This document shows, in pieces, positions 2,530 to 58,957 of a stretch of DNA of 64,000 nucleotides. Source of the DNA: Isosphaera sp. (GTDB lineage: Bacteria; Planctomycetota; Planctomycetia; Gemmatales; Gemmataceae). The stretch spans positions 1 through 64,000 of the forward strand of contig PNKH01000019.1 of the NCBI GenBank assembly GCA_013822345.1, read 5' to 3'. The notes below the pieces were generated by a model. That model was not told the origin of the DNA, ran no database searches, and was given only the letters and a program-made list of their open reading frames with translations. Within the stretch, counting starts at the first letter, position 1; every line of letters starts with the position of its first letter. The position numbers and the translations under genes are program-made.

Positions 2530-3930
2530 CTACACCACCTCCGCGACTTCCCCGCGGTCCAGCCGCAGCGTCCGCGTCACCGACCGCGGCAACTCCGCCG
2601 GGTCGTGCGTCACGAACAGCAGCGTCTGGTCGGCGCCCAACTCGCGGTCGAGGTACGCCCGGCACGCCTCCACCCGGCCCGCGTCCAGCGACTGGAACGG
2701 CTCGTCCAGGATCACCAGCGGCGGCCGCTTCACCAGCGCCCGGGCCAACAGCACCAGCCGCTGTTCGCCGGTCGAGAGGTGGCGGAACGGCCGGCCGTGC
2801 AGGTGACTGATCCCGAAGGCGCCGAAGAGTTCGCGTACCCGGGCGTCCTGTTCGGGCGACGTCGGCCGGTCGGTGACGCCGTCGGCGAACCCGGTCGCGG
2901 TGGCCCGGTCGGCGGTCAGCGACTCGGTGAAGTACAGGTGGAACTCCGGCGACACCAGCCCGACGTTCCGCTTCACGTCCCAGACCGTTTCCCCGGTCCC
3001 GCGGCGCCGGCCGAACAGGCGGATGTCGTTCGCGTACGCCTGCGGGTGGTCGCCGCACAAGAGGCTCAGGAGCGTCGTCTTCCCGGACCCGTTCGGCCCG
3101 ACGACCGCCCACCGCTCGCCCGCCCGGACCGTCCACGACACGTCGTCGAGGATGGCGCGGCCGGCGTGGCGGACGGTCACGCCGCGCAGCTCGGCGACGG
3201 GGTCGGGGCGAACCGCGACCGTCAGGGAGCGGGTGTCTTCCCCCCCTGACACCCGCTCCCTGACGGTCGCGGTTCGCCCGGCGAGGTCGAGCACGTCCGT
3301 CACCCACCCCGGGACCGCGTCCGCCCGGCAGATCAGCACCAGCCGCTTCCCTTCCCGGACCAGTTCCCCGAGTAGCGCCGCCAGGTCCGCCCGGCCGGCC
3401 GCGTCCAGCCCGACGAACGGGTCGTCCAGCACCAGCAGTTCCGGGCCGGCGAGCAGGGCGCGGGCGAGCCGGGCCCGCCGCGTCTGCCCGTTCGACAGCG
3501 TCATGAACGGCTGGGAAAGTTGCTCGCGGACGCCGAGCCGGTCGGCGACCGCGGCGACATCGCCGGCCGTCCCGGCGCGGAGGAACTGTTCGAGTGACAG
3601 CGGGCTGTCAGCGTCGGCGAACTCGAACCGCTGCTGGTAGTAGTGGCCGGCGTAGGAGAACAGCCGCGACTCCTCCCGGAACGCGACGTGGGCGACCGCC
3701 TGCGACGGGTAGTCGGCCCCGACCCGGGCGAGGAGCGGCCACCGGACGGCCCCGGCGGTCGGGCGGAGCTTGCCGAGGACGAGTTCGGCGAGCGTCGTCT
3801 TGCCGGACCCGGTCGGCCCGACCACCGCCCACGCCTGGCCGTCGCGGACGGTCCACGTCAGCCCGGCGAAGACGCCGTGCTCGCCGCGCACGACGGCCAC
3901 CTCATCGAGTTCCACCACGGCGTCGGTCAC
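2530..3930 (-). CDS. Duplicated ABC ATPase, ModF-like
   Basis: One 466-aa chain carries two ABC nucleotide-binding domains. Domain 1 has Walker A GPTGSGKTT near residue 38, the signature-like LSNGQTRRARLA and Walker B LLVLDDPF. Domain 2 has Walker A GPNGSGKTT near residue 277, LSTGEQRLVLLA and LVILDEPF. No membrane segment is present. Soluble tandem proteins of this type include ModF, annotated in molybdate transport, but no mod genes are near and the substrate is unknown. The GTG start overlaps the hemC stop by 4 bp (GTGA). A palindromic repeat is translated in frame as the linker between the domains, at about residues 217-242. Confidence 0.85.
   Translation of the reverse strand: MTDAVVELDEVAVVRGEHGVFAGLTWTVRDGQAWAVVGPTGSGKTTLAELVLGKLRPTAGAVRWPLLARVGADYPSQAVAHVAFREESRLFSYAGHYYQQRFEFADADSPLSLEQFLRAGTAGDVAAVADRLGVREQLSQPFMTLSNGQTRRARLARALLAGPELLVLDDPFVGLDAAGRADLAALLGELVREGKRLVLICRADAVPGWVTDVLDLAGRTATVRERVSGGEDTRSLTVAVRPDPVAELRGVTVRHAGRAILDDVSWTVRAGERWAVVGPNGSGKTTLLSLLCGDHPQAYANDIRLFGRRRGTGETVWDVKRNVGLVSPEFHLYFTESLTADRATATGFADGVTDRPTSPEQDARVRELFGAFGISHLHGRPFRHLSTGEQRLVLLARALVKRPPLVILDEPFQSLDAGRVEACRAYLDRELGADQTLLFVTHDPAELPRSVTRTLRLDRGEVAEVV
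3206..3279. repeat. Palindromic repeat, family C, inside the ABC ATPase gene
   Basis: Perfect 32-bp inverted arms beginning GGGCGAACCGCGACCGTC enclose a 10-nt C-rich loop. The same arm recurs near 11.0, 28.9 and 43.9 kb. Here it lies wholly inside a coding sequence without breaking the frame, and encodes a linker containing TATVRERVS and DTRSLTVAVRP. Those peptides match both arms read in one frame, so the linker is repeat-derived. Confidence 0.95.
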
Positions 3931-10970: not shown

Positions 10971-11160
10971 CCGGGCGTGGCGCCGGGGCGGGGCGACCGA
11001 CCGGGCGAACCGCGACCGTCAGGGAGCGGGTGTCGGCCCCACCCGCTCCCTGACGGTCGCGGTTCGCCCGGCGCGCGGCGGCGGCCTCCCGCTCGGCCTC
11101 GTCGGCGGTCAGGAACGGGTCGAGGAGGAGGCGGGTCAGGGCGTCGCTGGTGTTCTCCAT
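10960..11160 (-). CDS. Small protein with a repeat-derived C-terminus
   Basis: This 66-aa reading frame starts at an ATG with a strong ribosome binding site (GGAGGA, 8-9 bases upstream). The first 32 residues (beginning MENTSDALTRLLLDPFL) look like a genuine short helical protein. From there on the frame runs through a family C palindrome, giving NRDRQGAG and DTRSLTVAVRP, and ends 11 bp inside the 3' end of hslU on the opposite strand. I do not recognise the family. The original stop may have been lost when the repeat inserted. Whether it is expressed is unknown. Confidence 0.45.
   Translation of the reverse strand: MENTSDALTRLLLDPFLTADEAEREAAAARRANRDRQGAGGADTRSLTVAVRPVGRPAPAPRPVTG
11001..11071. 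repeat. Palindromic repeat, family C
   Basis: Perfect 32-bp arms starting CCGGGCGAACCGCGACC surround a 7-nt loop, 30 bp after the hslU stop. The position would suit a transcription terminator-like hairpin for hslVU, although no T-tract follows. It also forms the translated tail of the small minus-strand ORF. Confidence 0.95.
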
Positions 11161-11454: not shown

Positions 11455-12477
11455 CTACCGCTTCCCTGCGCCCCGCGCCTCGCCCAGTTCCCCGCGGGCC
11501 AACTGTACCACCCGCCCGGCGCGGCGGGCTGACACCCCGCCCGGGAAGTCCCACCCGGCGACCTCGCCCCGGGCCACCGCGCACGCCCGGTCCCAGGCGT
11601 CGGCCCCCATGTCGTCCGCCGGCCAACCCTCCCGCTCCCACACCAGCCGCAGCACCGCCCGGGTCACCGGCGGCGGCCCGAGCGCCGCGGCGTCCAGCAC
11701 CACCGTGGCCCCGACCCGCGGCCGCTCGGCCGCCGCCAGCACCTCGGCGGCCTTTTCCAGGATGATCGCGTGGGCGTCGGCGGCGTGCTCGGCGAGGCGG
11801 GCGAGGGCGGTCACCACGTCCGGGTTGAACGCCCGCAGGAGTGGCAGGAGTTCGTGCCGGATGCGGTTGCGGGTGAACCGCGGGTCGGCGTTCGACGCGT
11901 CCTCCCGGAACGGCTGGCCGAGTCCGGCGAGGTGGGCGAGCACGTCGGCCCGGGTGACCGTGAGGAGCGGGCGAACGATGTCCGTCCGAGCCGGAAACGT
12001 CCGTGACGGGTCGTCGCCTTGCCGTCGCTCACGCGTCCGGCTCGGACGGATCCCGCTCAGCCCCCCGATCCCCGTCCCGCGGACGATCCGGTGCAGCACC
12101 GTCTCGGCCTGGTCGTCGGCGGTGTGCCCGGTGGCGACCCACCCGGCCCCGACCTCGGCCGCGACCTCGGCGAAGAACCCGTACCGCACCGCCCGGGCCG
12201 CCGCCTCCAGGTTCCCGCCGAGCGTCGCCACGTCGGCCGACTTCACCCGACACTCCAGCCCGAGGCCGGCCGCCAGGTCGCGCACGAACTGCTCGTCCGC
12301 GTCGGACTCCGTGCCGCGGAGGCGGTGGTTGACGTGGGCGACGGTCAGCGGGCCGGTCGGGCACGCCGCCAGCGCCCGCAGCAGCGCGACGCTGTCCGCC
12401 CCGCCGGACACCGCCACCACGCCCGGGCCGGCCAGGCCCGCCGCCGCCCGCCGCACCTCGCGCAGCACCCGCGTCAC
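11455..12477 (-). CDS. tilS: tRNA(Ile)-lysidine synthase
   Basis: TilS converts C34 of the CAU-anticodon tRNA(Ile) to lysidine, so that it reads AUA. The PP-loop SGGADSVALL lies near residue 24, followed by AHVNHRLRGTES, ATGHTADDQAETVL and the DASNADPRFTRNRIRHELLPLL block that recognises tRNA. The length of 340 aa is moderate, with a reduced C-terminal part. The chain is interrupted at about residues 143-164, between GGLSGIRP and IVRPLL, by a family B palindrome translated in frame. This loop follows the catalytic domain and probably tolerates insertion. The GTG start gives MTRVLREVRRA. Confidence 0.93.
   Translation of the reverse strand: MTRVLREVRRAAAGLAGPGVVAVSGGADSVALLRALAACPTGPLTVAHVNHRLRGTESDADEQFVRDLAAGLGLECRVKSADVATLGGNLEAAARAVRYGFFAEVAAEVGAGWVATGHTADDQAETVLHRIVRGTGIGGLSGIRPSRTRERRQGDDPSRTFPARTDIVRPLLTVTRADVLAHLAGLGQPFREDASNADPRFTRNRIRHELLPLLRAFNPDVVTALARLAEHAADAHAIILEKAAEVLAAAERPRVGATVVLDAAALGPPPVTRAVLRLVWEREGWPADDMGADAWDRACAVARGEVAGWDFPGGVSARRAGRVVQLARGELGEARGAGKR
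11984..12047. repeat. Palindromic repeat, family B, inside tilS
   Basis: A 64-bp imperfect palindrome begins GTCCGAGCCGGAAACGTC and ends GCGTCCGGCTCGGAC. The same element occurs inside two other genes in this window. It contains no stop in the tilS frame and adds about 21 residues rich in Arg, Thr and Pro. Confidence 0.93.
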
Positions 12478-28856: not shown

Positions 28857-28932
28857 CCGGGCGAACCGCGACCGTCAGGGAGCGGGTGTCGGGAGTGCAA
28901 CACCCGCTCCCTGACGGTCGCGGTTCGCCCGG
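28857..28932. repeat. Palindromic repeat, family C
   Basis: Perfect 33-bp arms (CCGGGCGAACCGCGACC at the left end) surround a 10-nt loop. The element starts one base after the TGA of the PEP-CTERM gene and ends 15 bp before the stop of the convergent small secreted protein, so it is placed to act as a two-way terminator. Confidence 0.95.
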
Positions 28933-43892: not shown

Positions 43893-43928
43893 AACGGTTG
43901 CCCGGGCCGTTTCGTTCTCAGCGGAGTT

Positions 43929-44003
43929 GTCGCACCCGCTCCCTGACGGTCGCGGTTCGCCAGCCGACACGGCGAACCGCGACCGTCAGGGAGCGGGTGC
44001 GAC
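43929..44003. repeat. Palindromic repeat, family C, reversed order of arms
   Basis: The 33-bp arms are the same unit as in the other family C copies, but each half points the other way: the CACCCGCTCCCTGACGG ends lie outside and the GGCGAACC ends face the loop (9 nt). The unit can thus pair in both orientations, as in bacterial interspersed mosaic elements. Confidence 0.93.
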
Positions 44004-44130
44004 ACCCCCCAGACCACCTGACCTCACGACACGAACCAAACGGCCCTGAACGGTTGCGAAGTGCCCTTGCATCTCTCGGTCGGCGTCCGCTACCGTGTCA
44101 ATTCGTCCCCGAACAAGGAGGTTCCGGGCC

Positions 44131-47514: not shown

Positions 47515-48651
47515 TTATGCCCGGTCCGGGCCGCTGTTTCCACCCCCGGGCCGGACCGCGACCCGCACCGGCCGCTCGGCCTCGGCGAACCGGAACGCGG
47601 CGTCGACGGCGTCGAGCGGGAAGGTGTCGGCGACCAGCCCGGCGAACGGGTAGCAGGCGTGGTGGGCGCCGAGGAAATGCACCGCGGCGGCGAGGTCCGG
47701 CGGGGCGTAGTTGTGGACCCCGACCAAGGTGAGGCACCGGCGGACGACCGCCTCCGGCTCGACCGGCACCGTCCCGACCGGGGACACCGCCCCGACCCAC
47801 ACGACCGTCCCGCCGACCCGCGCCGCGGCCAGCGACAAGGCGGCTGCGTCGGCCGACCCGCTCAGCTCCAGCACCACGTCGGCCCCGCGGCCGGCGGTGA
47901 GCGCCTTCGCCGCGTCAACCAGGTCGGCCGGCTTCGCGAGGTGAGCCGCCCCGAACCGCGACGCCTGTGACAGCCGGGCGTCACTCACGTCGCAGGCCAG
48001 GACGGTGTAGCCATCCGACGCGGCCGCCGCGCAGGCCGTCAGCCCGAGCATGCCGAGACCGACGACGGCGACCGTGCCGTCCGAGCCGGAAGCGTCAGCG
48101 ACGGGTCGAGGTGGGCCGTCGCTGACGCTTCCGGCTCGGACGGCGCGGAAGGCCGCCATGACCGTCGCGGTGGCGCACCCGGCCGGGGCGGCGACCGCGT
48201 CCGGCAGCTGCGGCGGCACCTTCACCACCGCCGTTCCCGGCAGCAGCCGGCAGTGCGTCGCCAGCCCGCCGAGCGGCGCGTCGCCGTCGGCGTGCGGCTC
48301 GTGCCCGTACTTCCGGAGCGATTCGCACTTCTGCGGCAGTCCGCGGGTGCAGAAGAAGCACCGGCCGCACCCGACCGCCACCGCCCACACCACCCGGTCG
48401 CCGACCCGCACCGGCTCGCCCGCCACGTCGCGGAGTTCACCGTTCACCTCTTCCACCACGCCGACCGGCTCGTGCCCCAGTACCGACGGCGTCGGCTGGG
48501 TGCGGCGGCCGGCGAACGTGTGGAGGTCGCTGCCGCAGACGGTGCAGAGCGCGACGCGGACGAGCGCCTCGCCGGGGCCGGGCCGCGGCGCGGCCGAGCA
48601 CCCGAACCGGAACGGCTTCCCGGGGCCGTCGAACACGGCGGCGCGGATCAT
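47515..48651 (-). CDS. Zinc-dependent alcohol dehydrogenase (MDR family)
   Basis: The 378-aa protein has MDR features: VALCTVCGSDLHTFAGRR, with catalytic zinc Cys, and GHEPVGVVEEV. CGRCFFCTRGLPQKC is the four-cysteine structural zinc site. GTVAVVGLGMLGLTACAAA is the NAD(P)-binding Rossmann loop. The fold resembles MDR dehydrogenases linked to phosphonate breakdown, but no phn genes are near, so the substrate is open. A family B palindrome is translated in frame at about residues 170-191, just before the Rossmann strand. The start overlaps the transporter gene (ATGA). Confidence 0.88.
   Translation of the reverse strand: MIRAAVFDGPGKPFRFGCSAAPRPGPGEALVRVALCTVCGSDLHTFAGRRTQPTPSVLGHEPVGVVEEVNGELRDVAGEPVRVGDRVVWAVAVGCGRCFFCTRGLPQKCESLRKYGHEPHADGDAPLGGLATHCRLLPGTAVVKVPPQLPDAVAAPAGCATATVMAAFRAVRAGSVSDGPPRPVADASGSDGTVAVVGLGMLGLTACAAAASDGYTVLACDVSDARLSQASRFGAAHLAKPADLVDAAKALTAGRGADVVLELSGSADAAALSLAAARVGGTVVWVGAVSPVGTVPVEPEAVVRRCLTLVGVHNYAPPDLAAAVHFLGAHHACYPFAGLVADTFPLDAVDAAFRFAEAERPVRVAVRPGGGNSGPDRA
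48079..48141. repeat. Palindromic repeat, family B, inside the alcohol dehydrogenase gene
   Basis: The 63-bp palindrome starts GTCCGAGCCGGAAGCGTC and ends GACGCTTCCGGCTCGGAC. It adds 21 residues containing GSVSDGPPRP and ASGSDG between AAFRAVRA and TVAVVGLG without a stop. Confidence 0.95.
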
Positions 48652-56065: not shown

Positions 56066-58957
56066 TTACGCCCCGGCGGAGAGTTTCAGCCCGATCGGCA
56101 GCCCCTCCCCGAACATCCGCGACGCCTCCTCCCCCTCGTTCGCCACCACCTCCTCCACCATCCGCCGCCACGCCCCCGGGCACGGGTGCGCCCGCAGCAC
56201 CCCGAGCACCCGGTTCCGGGCCGGGTCCGACACGTCGACCGCCCGCAGCCCGCTCTGCCGGGCCAACTGCGACAGGCAGAACAGCCACCCGTTCCGCTCG
56301 CTGTCGTTCCCCGGGGCGAACGGCAACAGCTCATCGACCCACCCCTCGGCCACGTCCGGGTGGACGACCGAGTTCAGCGGGCCGTACAGCTGCACCCGCG
56401 CCCCGAGCCGGGTCAGCGCCCAGAACGCGTGCGTCGGCACCGGCGACTTCTTGCAGTCGCGCACTGCCGCGTGCCCGAGCTGCTCCTTGGTCCGGGCGTC
56501 GAGCCGCTCCAGGCTCGCGGCCGCCCGCCACATCTCCGCGAACTCGCCCGCCGGCGGCCGGCTGTACGCCTTCCCCTTCACCGGCAGCAGCGCCGGCCGG
56601 AGCCGGGTGAACAAAGCCTGCTGCAGCGCCGCGTTCAGCCCGCCGGCGACCCGACGCCACATGATCCAGTAGTCGGCCCCGCCCTCCGGCACGACCGGCG
56701 GCTTCTTCCCCCCGCTCCCGACCGCCGGCTGGCTCGCCCCGGCGGTGATCAGCTTCCACAAGGCTTCGACGCGGTACCGGTCGACCGGGTCGCCGAACCC
56801 CGGCCGGAGCACGAACCCGGTCAGGTTGTACCACCGGGCCAGGTGCGCCGGCGACTTCCCGCGCCCCGCCGCGTGGCGTTCGAGGAACTCCCACACCCGC
56901 CGGCACAGCCCGGTCGGCCAGTCCCCGCGCGGCGACTCCAGGGCGGCTTCGAGCAGCTTCGGCAGGTCGGAGGTCGTGGGCGGGGCGTCCGAGCCGGAAG
57001 CGTGAGCGACGGGGGCGCGGGCCGTCGCTGACGCATCCGGCTCGGACGGCCGGTCGCCGAACACCTGCGCGACCAGCGCCCCGGCGGCCTGCACCTTCTC
57101 CTCCGGGAACACGTCGACCACCGCCCCGGCGGCCGCCGCGTCCGCCTCCTCGTCCTCCGCCGTCGGTTCCCGGAGCACGTCCCGGACGTTGAACTCCAGC
57201 CGCCACCGGTTCCCGTCCTTCGACTCGCAGTACAGCTCCAGCGTCCCGATCTCGGTGCACTTCGCGGCGAGCGTGACCGGCACCCGTTTCGCCCCGGCTC
57301 GCTTCCCGCCGCGCAGCACCGTGTGCAGCGGCGGCAGCCGCAACAGCGACTCGGGCGGCAGCCGCAGCACCTGGCCGGCCTTGTCGTCGCCGCGCACCGT
57401 CGACGTGTACAGCGGGAACAGCACCGGCTCCCCGAGCGCCAGCTCGAGCACCGGCGCGGGCATGTGGACCTCTTCGCCCTCCTGCAGCCGCCGCGGGACG
57501 ACGCACAGCACCGGGACGCTGTGGGCGTGGATCCCCCGGCCCGGCGTATCGGTCTCGATGGCGACGTAGTAGGAGCGCGGGATGCCGCCGCCGATCCGCC
57601 GCCCGCCGGAGTGCCGCAGCCACGCGAAGTACGCCGCCCCCCAGGCGACCGCCAGGTCCAGCGACGGGCTGGTCAGCACCAGCGGTTCCCACTTCTGCTG
57701 CGGCCCGGTGAACCACGGCCGCATCACCTCGACCACCCGCTCCCGCAGCACCCCCGGCTGGAACACCCCGCCGTTGAACAGGATCGCGTCCACCGCCTCG
57801 CCGGCCGGGACGTGCTGCCGGACGAACGCCGCCAGGTGCCGCGACACGGCCGGGTCGGAGACGTACGGCAGGCCCATCTCCTGGAGGCCGGCGCGGGCCC
57901 CGCGGGCCGGCTCGGCGTCGAACGCGGCGGCCGGGAAGAACCCGTCGAACAGGGCGGCGGTCACGTCGCCCGGGGTGATGTTCACCGACACCGTCCCGCC
58001 GACGACCGACCGGCCGCGGCCCATGACGGTGACCGGGACGGTGGCCGGGGCCGGGGTCGCCAGGAGCGATTCCTTCGCCGCCCGGCACGCCTGCACCAGC
58101 GACCCGAACTGGGCCGCGTCGAGCCGCCCGCCGGGCAGCTTCGCCTCGACCGCCTTCGCCAGGGCCAGGTCCATGTTGTCGCCGCCGAGCAGGAGGTGCT
58201 CGCCGACCGCGTCCCGGACGAACGTCAGTTCCCCCTTCTCCTCCCCGGCCCGGATCAGGCTGAAGTCGGACGTCCCGCCGCCGACGTCCACCACCAGGCA
58301 GCGCATGCCCGGCTTGAGCATCCCGGCCTCGGCCGGGGAGTGGGTGCCGAGCCAGGCGTAGAACGCCGCCTGCGGCTCCTCCAGCAGGGTGACGTTCTTC
58401 AGCCCGGCCTGCTTCGCCGCCTCGGCGGTCAGGTTGCGGGCCACGTCGTCGAACGACGCCGGCACGGTGACCACGACCGTCTGCTCTTCGAGCCTGTCGT
58501 CCGCCTTGCGGTTCGGGGCGGCGTTCCACGCCTCGACGAGGTGCTTGAGGTACCGGGCGCTGACCTCCAGCGGCGACAGCCGCGGCACGTCCGGCGGCCC
58601 GGCCCACGGCAGGAGCGGGGCGGTGCGGTCGACGCCGGGGTGGCTGAGCCACGACTTCGCGCTGGTCACCTGCCGGCCGGGGACCTTGGCCCCGTGGTTC
58701 CGGGCGAACAGGCCGACGGTGTCCGGCGGGTTCTTTTTCCACGGCAGGTCGATCGACCCGGGGGCGAGGTCGTGCGGGCCGGGGAGGTAGAGGAACGACG
58801 GCAGCAGCGGGTGCTCCTGCACCTGGCCGGCGGCGACGACCTGCGGGACGTTGAAGGTGCGGAGCTGCGGCCCGCCGGCCGCCTTGGCGGCGGTGTCGAC
58901 GTAGGCGACGGCGGTGTTGGTGGTGCCGAGGTCGATCCCGACGAGGAAGCGAGACAT
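56066..58957 (-). CDS. Large Hsp70-family protein
   Basis: The 963-aa protein has an Hsp70 ATPase domain: RFLVGIDLGTTNTAVAYVD at the start, VVVTVPASFDDVARNLTAEAAKQAGL, LVVDVGGGTSDFSLI and HLLLGGDNMDLALAKAVEAKL. The second half is unlike DnaK and fits the long Hsp70-like proteins with a C-terminal DUF3731-type domain, whose role is unknown. It is not the main DnaK. A family B palindrome is translated in frame at about residues 637-657. It diverges from the mfnF-like gene with a gap of only 34 bp. Confidence 0.88.
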   Translation of the reverse strand: MSRFLVGIDLGTTNTAVAYVDTAAKAAGGPQLRTFNVPQVVAAGQVQEHPLLPSFLYLPGPHDLAPGSIDLPWKKNPPDTVGLFARNHGAKVPGRQVTSAKSWLSHPGVDRTAPLLPWAGPPDVPRLSPLEVSARYLKHLVEAWNAAPNRKADDRLEEQTVVVTVPASFDDVARNLTAEAAKQAGLKNVTLLEEPQAAFYAWLGTHSPAEAGMLKPGMRCLVVDVGGGTSDFSLIRAGEEKGELTFVRDAVGEHLLLGGDNMDLALAKAVEAKLPGGRLDAAQFGSLVQACRAAKESLLATPAPATVPVTVMGRGRSVVGGTVSVNITPGDVTAALFDGFFPAAAFDAEPARGARAGLQEMGLPYVSDPAVSRHLAAFVRQHVPAGEAVDAILFNGGVFQPGVLRERVVEVMRPWFTGPQQKWEPLVLTSPSLDLAVAWGAAYFAWLRHSGGRRIGGGIPRSYYVAIETDTPGRGIHAHSVPVLCVVPRRLQEGEEVHMPAPVLELALGEPVLFPLYTSTVRGDDKAGQVLRLPPESLLRLPPLHTVLRGGKRAGAKRVPVTLAAKCTEIGTLELYCESKDGNRWRLEFNVRDVLREPTAEDEEADAAAAGAVVDVFPEEKVQAAGALVAQVFGDRPSEPDASATARAPVAHASGSDAPPTTSDLPKLLEAALESPRGDWPTGLCRRVWEFLERHAAGRGKSPAHLARWYNLTGFVLRPGFGDPVDRYRVEALWKLITAGASQPAVGSGGKKPPVVPEGGADYWIMWRRVAGGLNAALQQALFTRLRPALLPVKGKAYSRPPAGEFAEMWRAAASLERLDARTKEQLGHAAVRDCKKSPVPTHAFWALTRLGARVQLYGPLNSVVHPDVAEGWVDELLPFAPGNDSERNGWLFCLSQLARQSGLRAVDVSDPARNRVLGVLRAHPCPGAWRRMVEEVVANEGEEASRMFGEGLPIGLKLSAGA
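56987..57047. repeat. Palindromic repeat, family B, inside the Hsp70-family gene
   Basis: The 61-bp palindrome starts GTCCGAGCCGGAAGCGTG and ends GACGCATCCGGCTCGGAC. In the reading frame it yields SEPDASATARAPVAHASGSD, placed in a low-conservation linker between VFGDRP and PPTTSDLPKLLEAAL. Confidence 0.95.

Follow-up and report, generated by a model that had tools for sequence, protein, structure and literature searches.

Several described systems of short palindromic repeats come close to the element treated here, and they are compared as far as excerpts of the sources describe them. The REPIN/RAYT system (PMC3116915) combines two inverted arms and a spacer with many extragenic copies and with Y1 genes nearby. 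According to the excerpts of PMC3733652, REPs lie within 20 bp of the ends of open reading frames (ORFs), where they can supply stop codons; many genes, among them those for tRNA pseudouridine synthases, have a REP in frame, and in recB of two Xanthomonas species REPs are found at about the same site. The same excerpts state that no CGTC REPs turned up in Planctomycetes and that this type had no transposase. Class-3 TnpA_Y1 enzymes are described mainly from Planctomycetes, together with CnGA-footed palindromes, and carry the motifs NHVH, W[TA] and Y----Q (excerpts of PMC6006769, which also describe in-frame REPs within transposase genes and suggest loops as harmless sites). Finally, Rickettsia palindromic elements (RPE, as presented in the excerpts of PMC3733652) are in-frame palindromes in genes of conserved proteins.

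The palindrome studied here, called family B, shares features with each of these. As in the excerpted account of REPINs, there are two inverted arms with a spacer, many extragenic copies and Y1 genes in the neighbourhood; unlike them, family B has no GTAG tag and no exact cognate transposase was found, some copies are in frame in genes, and the stems are long and mostly perfect. With the GTAG/CGTC REPs, as excerpted, it has in common the placement at ORF ends, the supply of stop codons and the in-frame cases, with recB as a precedent for reuse of one site, but the recurrence at the same linkers here extends over four genes and a genus. The likeness to class-3 TnpA_Y1, as far as its excerpts go, lies in the signature of one transposase (locus L252) and in the CnGA (CCGA/CGGA) contained both in the palindromes flanking it and in family B; this link is made by sibling sequence only, and the CnGA motif is short and our own reading. 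RPE, as excerpted, differ in host and in sequence, and only about 5% of the examined family B copies are in genes.

The most probable account of the data, which we put at about 0.7, is that family B belongs to the REP/REPIN kind of elements: a short mobile palindrome, non-autonomous and with a variable loop between its arms, situated mostly just behind stop codons and spread by a Y1 (HUH) transposase of class-3 type. Insertions would persist at places where they do little harm, namely at gene ends and, if length and frame fit, in flexible loops of proteins. Such loops would have been colonised repeatedly, often by other palindrome families, as in the linkers of TilS and three other proteins of sister species.

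Earlier work has described in-frame REPs, mostly scattered ones; what looks new is that the same linkers have been colonised repeatedly across a genus. A single genus here provides many insertions that can be compared, in the same loops of core enzymes, TilS among them. Comparisons between species and simple enzyme assays can thus test whether they are chance survivors, targeted insertions or the origin of new stretches of protein. Neither the excerpts of PMC3733652 nor those of PMC6006769 describe a genus in which the same linkers of four conserved proteins are reused. Literature searches on repeats of Gemmata and planctomycetes, palindromes in TilS and same-site RPEs returned mostly unrelated papers and nothing closer than the excerpts of these two sources, which does not establish absence from print.

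The palindrome in tilS and its copies

The window is the whole stretch of 64,000 nucleotides that was analysed. The features around the element are as follows.

11455..12477, minus strand: tilS, tRNA(Ile)-lysidine synthetase, 340 aa (TIGR02432, E 1.1e-47; PF01171, Pfam ATP_bind_3)
11984..12047, minus strand: palindrome studied, in frame in tilS (pattern, copy and reading-frame evidence)
11981..12050, no strand given: palindrome in tilS with its stem lengthened by TCC/GGA on either side

The element at 11984-12047 reads GTCCGAGCCGG-N42-CCGGCTCGGAC, with arms of 26 nt each and a loop of 12 nt. CC to the left of the arms and GG to their right are common among family B copies. An earlier reading of the sequence alone had described a dispersed palindrome in frame in tilS, and this holds: the genome (G000; 7,468,024 bases in 226 contigs) contains 97 palindromes with exactly these ends, compared with none for the reversed pattern, and the ORF stays open from GI to IVRPLL, reading as RPSRTRERRQGDDPSRTFPARTD in between. 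Flanks were examined for 83 of the 97 copies. In an alignment of 44 of the 83, the arms pair in 97.4% of cells and co-vary, with both sides changed in 29 cells against a shuffled mean of 9.6 (0 of 500 shuffles were as high). The copy number and the co-varying arms together place the element far beyond chance.

Family B has two of the features by which REPINs are recognised, namely two inverted, hairpin-capable arms with a spacer and many dispersed copies that are mainly extragenic. The GTAG-type tag usual for REPs is absent from the arm ends of the 83 copies. CGTC is formed at one arm end where C precedes GTCC (69/83) or G follows GGAC (70/83), and so is not universal. The short motif CnGA, a candidate foot, is seen as CCGA in GTCCGAG and CGGA in GTCGGAG. 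Direct repeats of 2-5 nt at the ends of the 83 copies show no excess and hence no target duplication, which rules out a MITE of the kind that duplicates its target. A known RNA family was likewise rejected, as Rfam at the gathering threshold gives no match in the window. The exact ends are absent from 98 genomes of relatives apart from one occurrence, in G005. A search with a structure model, in which up to 150 candidates per genome were scored, detects related elements in 14 of 18 genus mates (E at most 0.001).

The linker in TilS is 69 nt long and almost wholly made of the element. It measures 33 nt, or 11 residues, in five family-level relatives and 18 nt in one member of the genus. Of the 21 or so residues that the element had been thought to add, the net gain is therefore only about 12-17. 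In tilS one copy occupies the loop between RGTGIGGLSGI and IVRPLL, where it is presumably translated. Alignments with the solved TilS chains 3a2k and 1wy5 both show a gap at the insert. An AlphaFold model of TilS (23 aligned sequences) has a mean pLDDT of 91.2, with low confidence confined to the middle of the insert: block 151-160 scores 53 and the flanking blocks 85 and 84. Judged by this dip, the insert probably forms a flexible loop in its middle part.

The arms of the tilS copy mismatch at 5 of 26 positions. Folded on the top strand, its predicted stem (-40.5 kcal/mol) is weaker than that of any other of the 83 copies; among the 79 intergenic copies the weakest reaches -42.2 and the median -60.2 kcal/mol. 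The arms are identical in 61 of these 79. The idea that the tilS copy is uniquely decayed was dropped: most of its arm differences are common to two intergenic copies (L076 and L070), so the weaker stem is largely a trait of a subtype.

Copies at gene ends and within genes

Most copies lie outside genes. Calls from a codon-usage gene caller, trained on sampled DNA that was chosen around family B copies, place 79 of the 83 outside genes and four inside; some of the 79 overlap the end of a gene, and one (L047) overlaps a called gene on its start side. The 79 have tandem genes as neighbours in 46 cases, convergent genes in 28 and divergent genes in 5. At a stop codon, either overlapping it or no more than 21 nt behind it, are 69 of the 79, where random placement between genes expects 14%. 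The element's own TGA closes a called ORF at 11 gene edges. Family B is a REPIN-like repeat of gene ends that is tolerated now and then within genes.

The four copies in genes are all in frame, in TilS, a dehydrogenase, an HSP70-like protein and a FwdB-like protein, and all three reading frames are used across them. Three of the four lie in the window, the second and third as listed here.

47515..48651, minus strand: Zn-dependent dehydrogenase, TIGR03366 family (E 1.4e-122)
48079..48141, minus strand: second in-gene copy, in frame in the dehydrogenase
56066..58957, minus strand: HSP70-like protein with DUF3731, 963 aa (PF12531, E 5e-67; PF00012, E 7e-16)
56987..57047, minus strand: third in-gene copy, in frame in the HSP70-like protein

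The sequence-only reading was thus correct that the family is inside two further genes of the window. It had also seen no intergenic copy, which is true within the window and false for the genome. Its explanation, that the repeat has no stop in the frames used, holds in part: two frames are nearly always open (156/166 and 153/166), but the third is open in only 25/166, owing to an internal TGA. The copy in the HSP70-like protein is read in this usually closed frame and has TCA in place of the consensus TGA.

From these copies two proposals had been drawn. Tolerance in coding linkers is supported by the four in-frame copies and by the other palindromes that the same linkers hold in relatives. 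A preference for coding linkers, in contrast, is refuted and now deserves almost no credence. The impression arose because each of the three exact-end copies of the window falls in a gene; with a coding share of 88.7% in the sampled DNA, however, four in-gene copies among 83 have a binomial probability of 1.8e-69. The many intergenic copies are an outcome that the sequence-only reading had itself named as refuting its view.

The placement could instead mean that the hairpins are functional signals at 3' ends, such as terminators or transcript stabilisers, kept by selection, and that the in-gene copies are strays. Tight placement behind stop codons speaks for this, as do the 28 of 83 copies between convergent genes, the very stable predicted stems and the pairing maintained by two-sided changes. 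It leaves unexplained why the element was copied into four coding linkers and why unrelated palindromes are found at the same linkers, and as a full account we consider it unlikely. Since a role at 3' ends is compatible with mobility, it is in part not a true rival of the mobile-palindrome account.

The same linkers in sister species

TilS was detected in 15 of 18 genus mates, and 14 of the linkers could be resolved. Seven of the 14 are self-complementary beyond all 200 shuffles. Linkers at the same sites of the other proteins are self-complementary in 5 of 13 resolved relatives for the dehydrogenase, 5 of 17 for the HSP70-like protein and 3 of 9 for the FwdB-like protein. Over the four genes this gives 20 significantly self-complementary linkers out of 53, compared with 6 of 600 control windows from the same loci (60 shuffles each, with the linkers not excluded from the windows). 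Left out for a missing flank were TilS and the dehydrogenase of G006, FwdB of G010 and the HSP70-like protein of G018. Species in which the dehydrogenase or FwdB is represented by distant paralogues alone were left out as well. The remaining 33 of 53 linkers are without significant self-complementarity, and some are plain and short; many species thus have no intact palindrome at these linkers. Linker length is divisible by three in 50 of 53 cases, the exceptions being TilS of G010 and the dehydrogenases of G010 and G016.

In G010 both of the exceptional linkers (TilS, L201; dehydrogenase, L319) contain stops; the genes may be broken, the proteins split, or the sequence in error. G004, listed as 100% complete, has no TilS match at E 0.001.

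Dispersed repeats sampled from the genomes match 10 of the 14 TilS linkers of other species, compared with 2 of 140 control windows in TilS. Over all four genes 32 of 53 linkers match; the corresponding controls (100, then 66 of 519) come out too high, since the sampled DNA includes orthologues and paralogues, and for this reason we rely on the TilS control only. Among the TilS linkers that carry repeats, six groups without matches between them can be told apart: G000 has family B, G009, G014 and G003 each have a linker of their own, G016 has another, and six species share a CCCCTCCC-type. Some repeat hits at the same linkers may partly be due to inheritance within clades, for example in G008, G010 and G013. 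In the HSP70-like linkers of G008, G010 and G007 (L289, L291 and L296), the peptide PGTAGVPPA...GGTPAVP comes from another palindrome family and is encoded by strongly self-complementary DNA.

An ancestral, conserved segment of TilS, the other outcome that the sequence-only reading had named as refuting its view, is rejected, as the segment is neither ancestral nor conserved. The linkers could still have been filled once in an ancestor and have diverged since. Certain linkers of relatives do match one another, as in the CCCCTCCC-type group and in the family-B-like HSP70 linkers of G000, G001, G004, G014 and G015. G000, G009 and G014, however, form a clade (support 100/99 in a tree of the HSP70-like protein from 16 species), and their three TilS linkers are mutually unmatched while each matches dispersed repeats elsewhere, which makes a single filling improbable. 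An assembly artefact has hardly any probability: the genome is in 226 contigs, and contig ends cut some of the relatives' genes, but the frames are open into conserved sequence on either side and the pattern is also found in relatives assembled as 1-4 contigs (G008, G014 and G016).

A further possibility, about which we are doubtful, is that certain linkers are true landing sites, at which a resident palindrome attracts palindromes of other families or is exchanged for them. The hairpin might then act, for example, as a single-stranded target for Y1 transposases, and the same protein loop would be rewritten repeatedly from the pool of dispersed repeats. For annotators the observations carry a caution, since a variable linker in one of these proteins may consist of repeat DNA.

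Transposases and other palindromes of the genus

Y1 transposase genes bear on the proposed mobility, for which one genome per species was compared; neither movement nor an empty site within a species was observed. G000 has five Y1_Tnp genes. The 450-nt flanks match each other (score at least 23) at four of them, compared with 2 of 400 random intervals, and at three of these four there are hairpins on both sides. Exact family B copies are found beside none of the five, and its siblings beside L252 only, where they flank the gene, which encodes a Y1 (HUH) protein, on both sides. This protein has the motifs NHVH, W-T and Y----Q, which form the class-3 TnpA_Y1 signature in the excerpts of PMC6006769, and it scores under the NCBIfam cut-off for IS200. 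Judged by the sibling sequences, an enzyme of class-3 type may move family B.

Among relatives, 20 strong Y1 loci show matching flanks in 14 cases, mostly without hairpins. Two species, G012 and G017, have neither a Y1_Tnp match nor a match to the structure model, and their linkers are plain at the three sites that were looked at, as would be expected if Y1 enzymes have a role. G008 counts against such a role, as it has palindromes although it has no Y1_Tnp match. Another Y1 transposase gene (L248), with the motif YIANQ, lies between the palindromes GTAGCCAGGGGTGGAG and CTCCACCCCTGGCTAC, which do have the GTAG tag.

Palindromes are common in the genome. A hairpin scan of 530 kb of G000, whose loop limit the tilS copy does not reach, found 167 long hairpins, nine of them within called genes; one of the nine (at 11001) is in an ORF whose coding score is very low. 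Samples of 13 genus mates yielded 71 hairpins, four within genes and 67 elsewhere, 42 of the latter overlapping a stop codon or lying no more than 25 nt behind one. The scan gave none in the samples of G012 and G003. Of three family-level outgroups, two had no hairpins in 100 kb and the third had one in 25 kb.

The window itself contains a second family, with GGGCGAACCGCGACCGTCAGGGAGCGGGTG arms and stems of 32-34 bp, at 3206-3279, 11001-11071, 28857-28932 and 43928-44004. Its copy at 3206 falls within the ORF of an ABC-transporter ATPase (2530-3930).

A sister family with GAGCCGGGAGCGT arms (for example at G000 C1:140878-140936) has perfect arms and variable loops. There are 82 exact copies of it in G000, 29 in G014 and one or two each in G004, G006, G009 and G015. 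A version of the outer stem in G004 occurs there twice, one copy being the HSP70-like linker, and it is absent from 18 other genomes. A separate dialect of the outer stem in every species is thus borne out only in part: the G004 version is private, and the second related family is found in several species.

In G015, near-perfect palindromes stand at gene ends, at positions 18-159 of L258 (stem of 61 bp) and 15569-15693 of L256 (stem of 51 bp).
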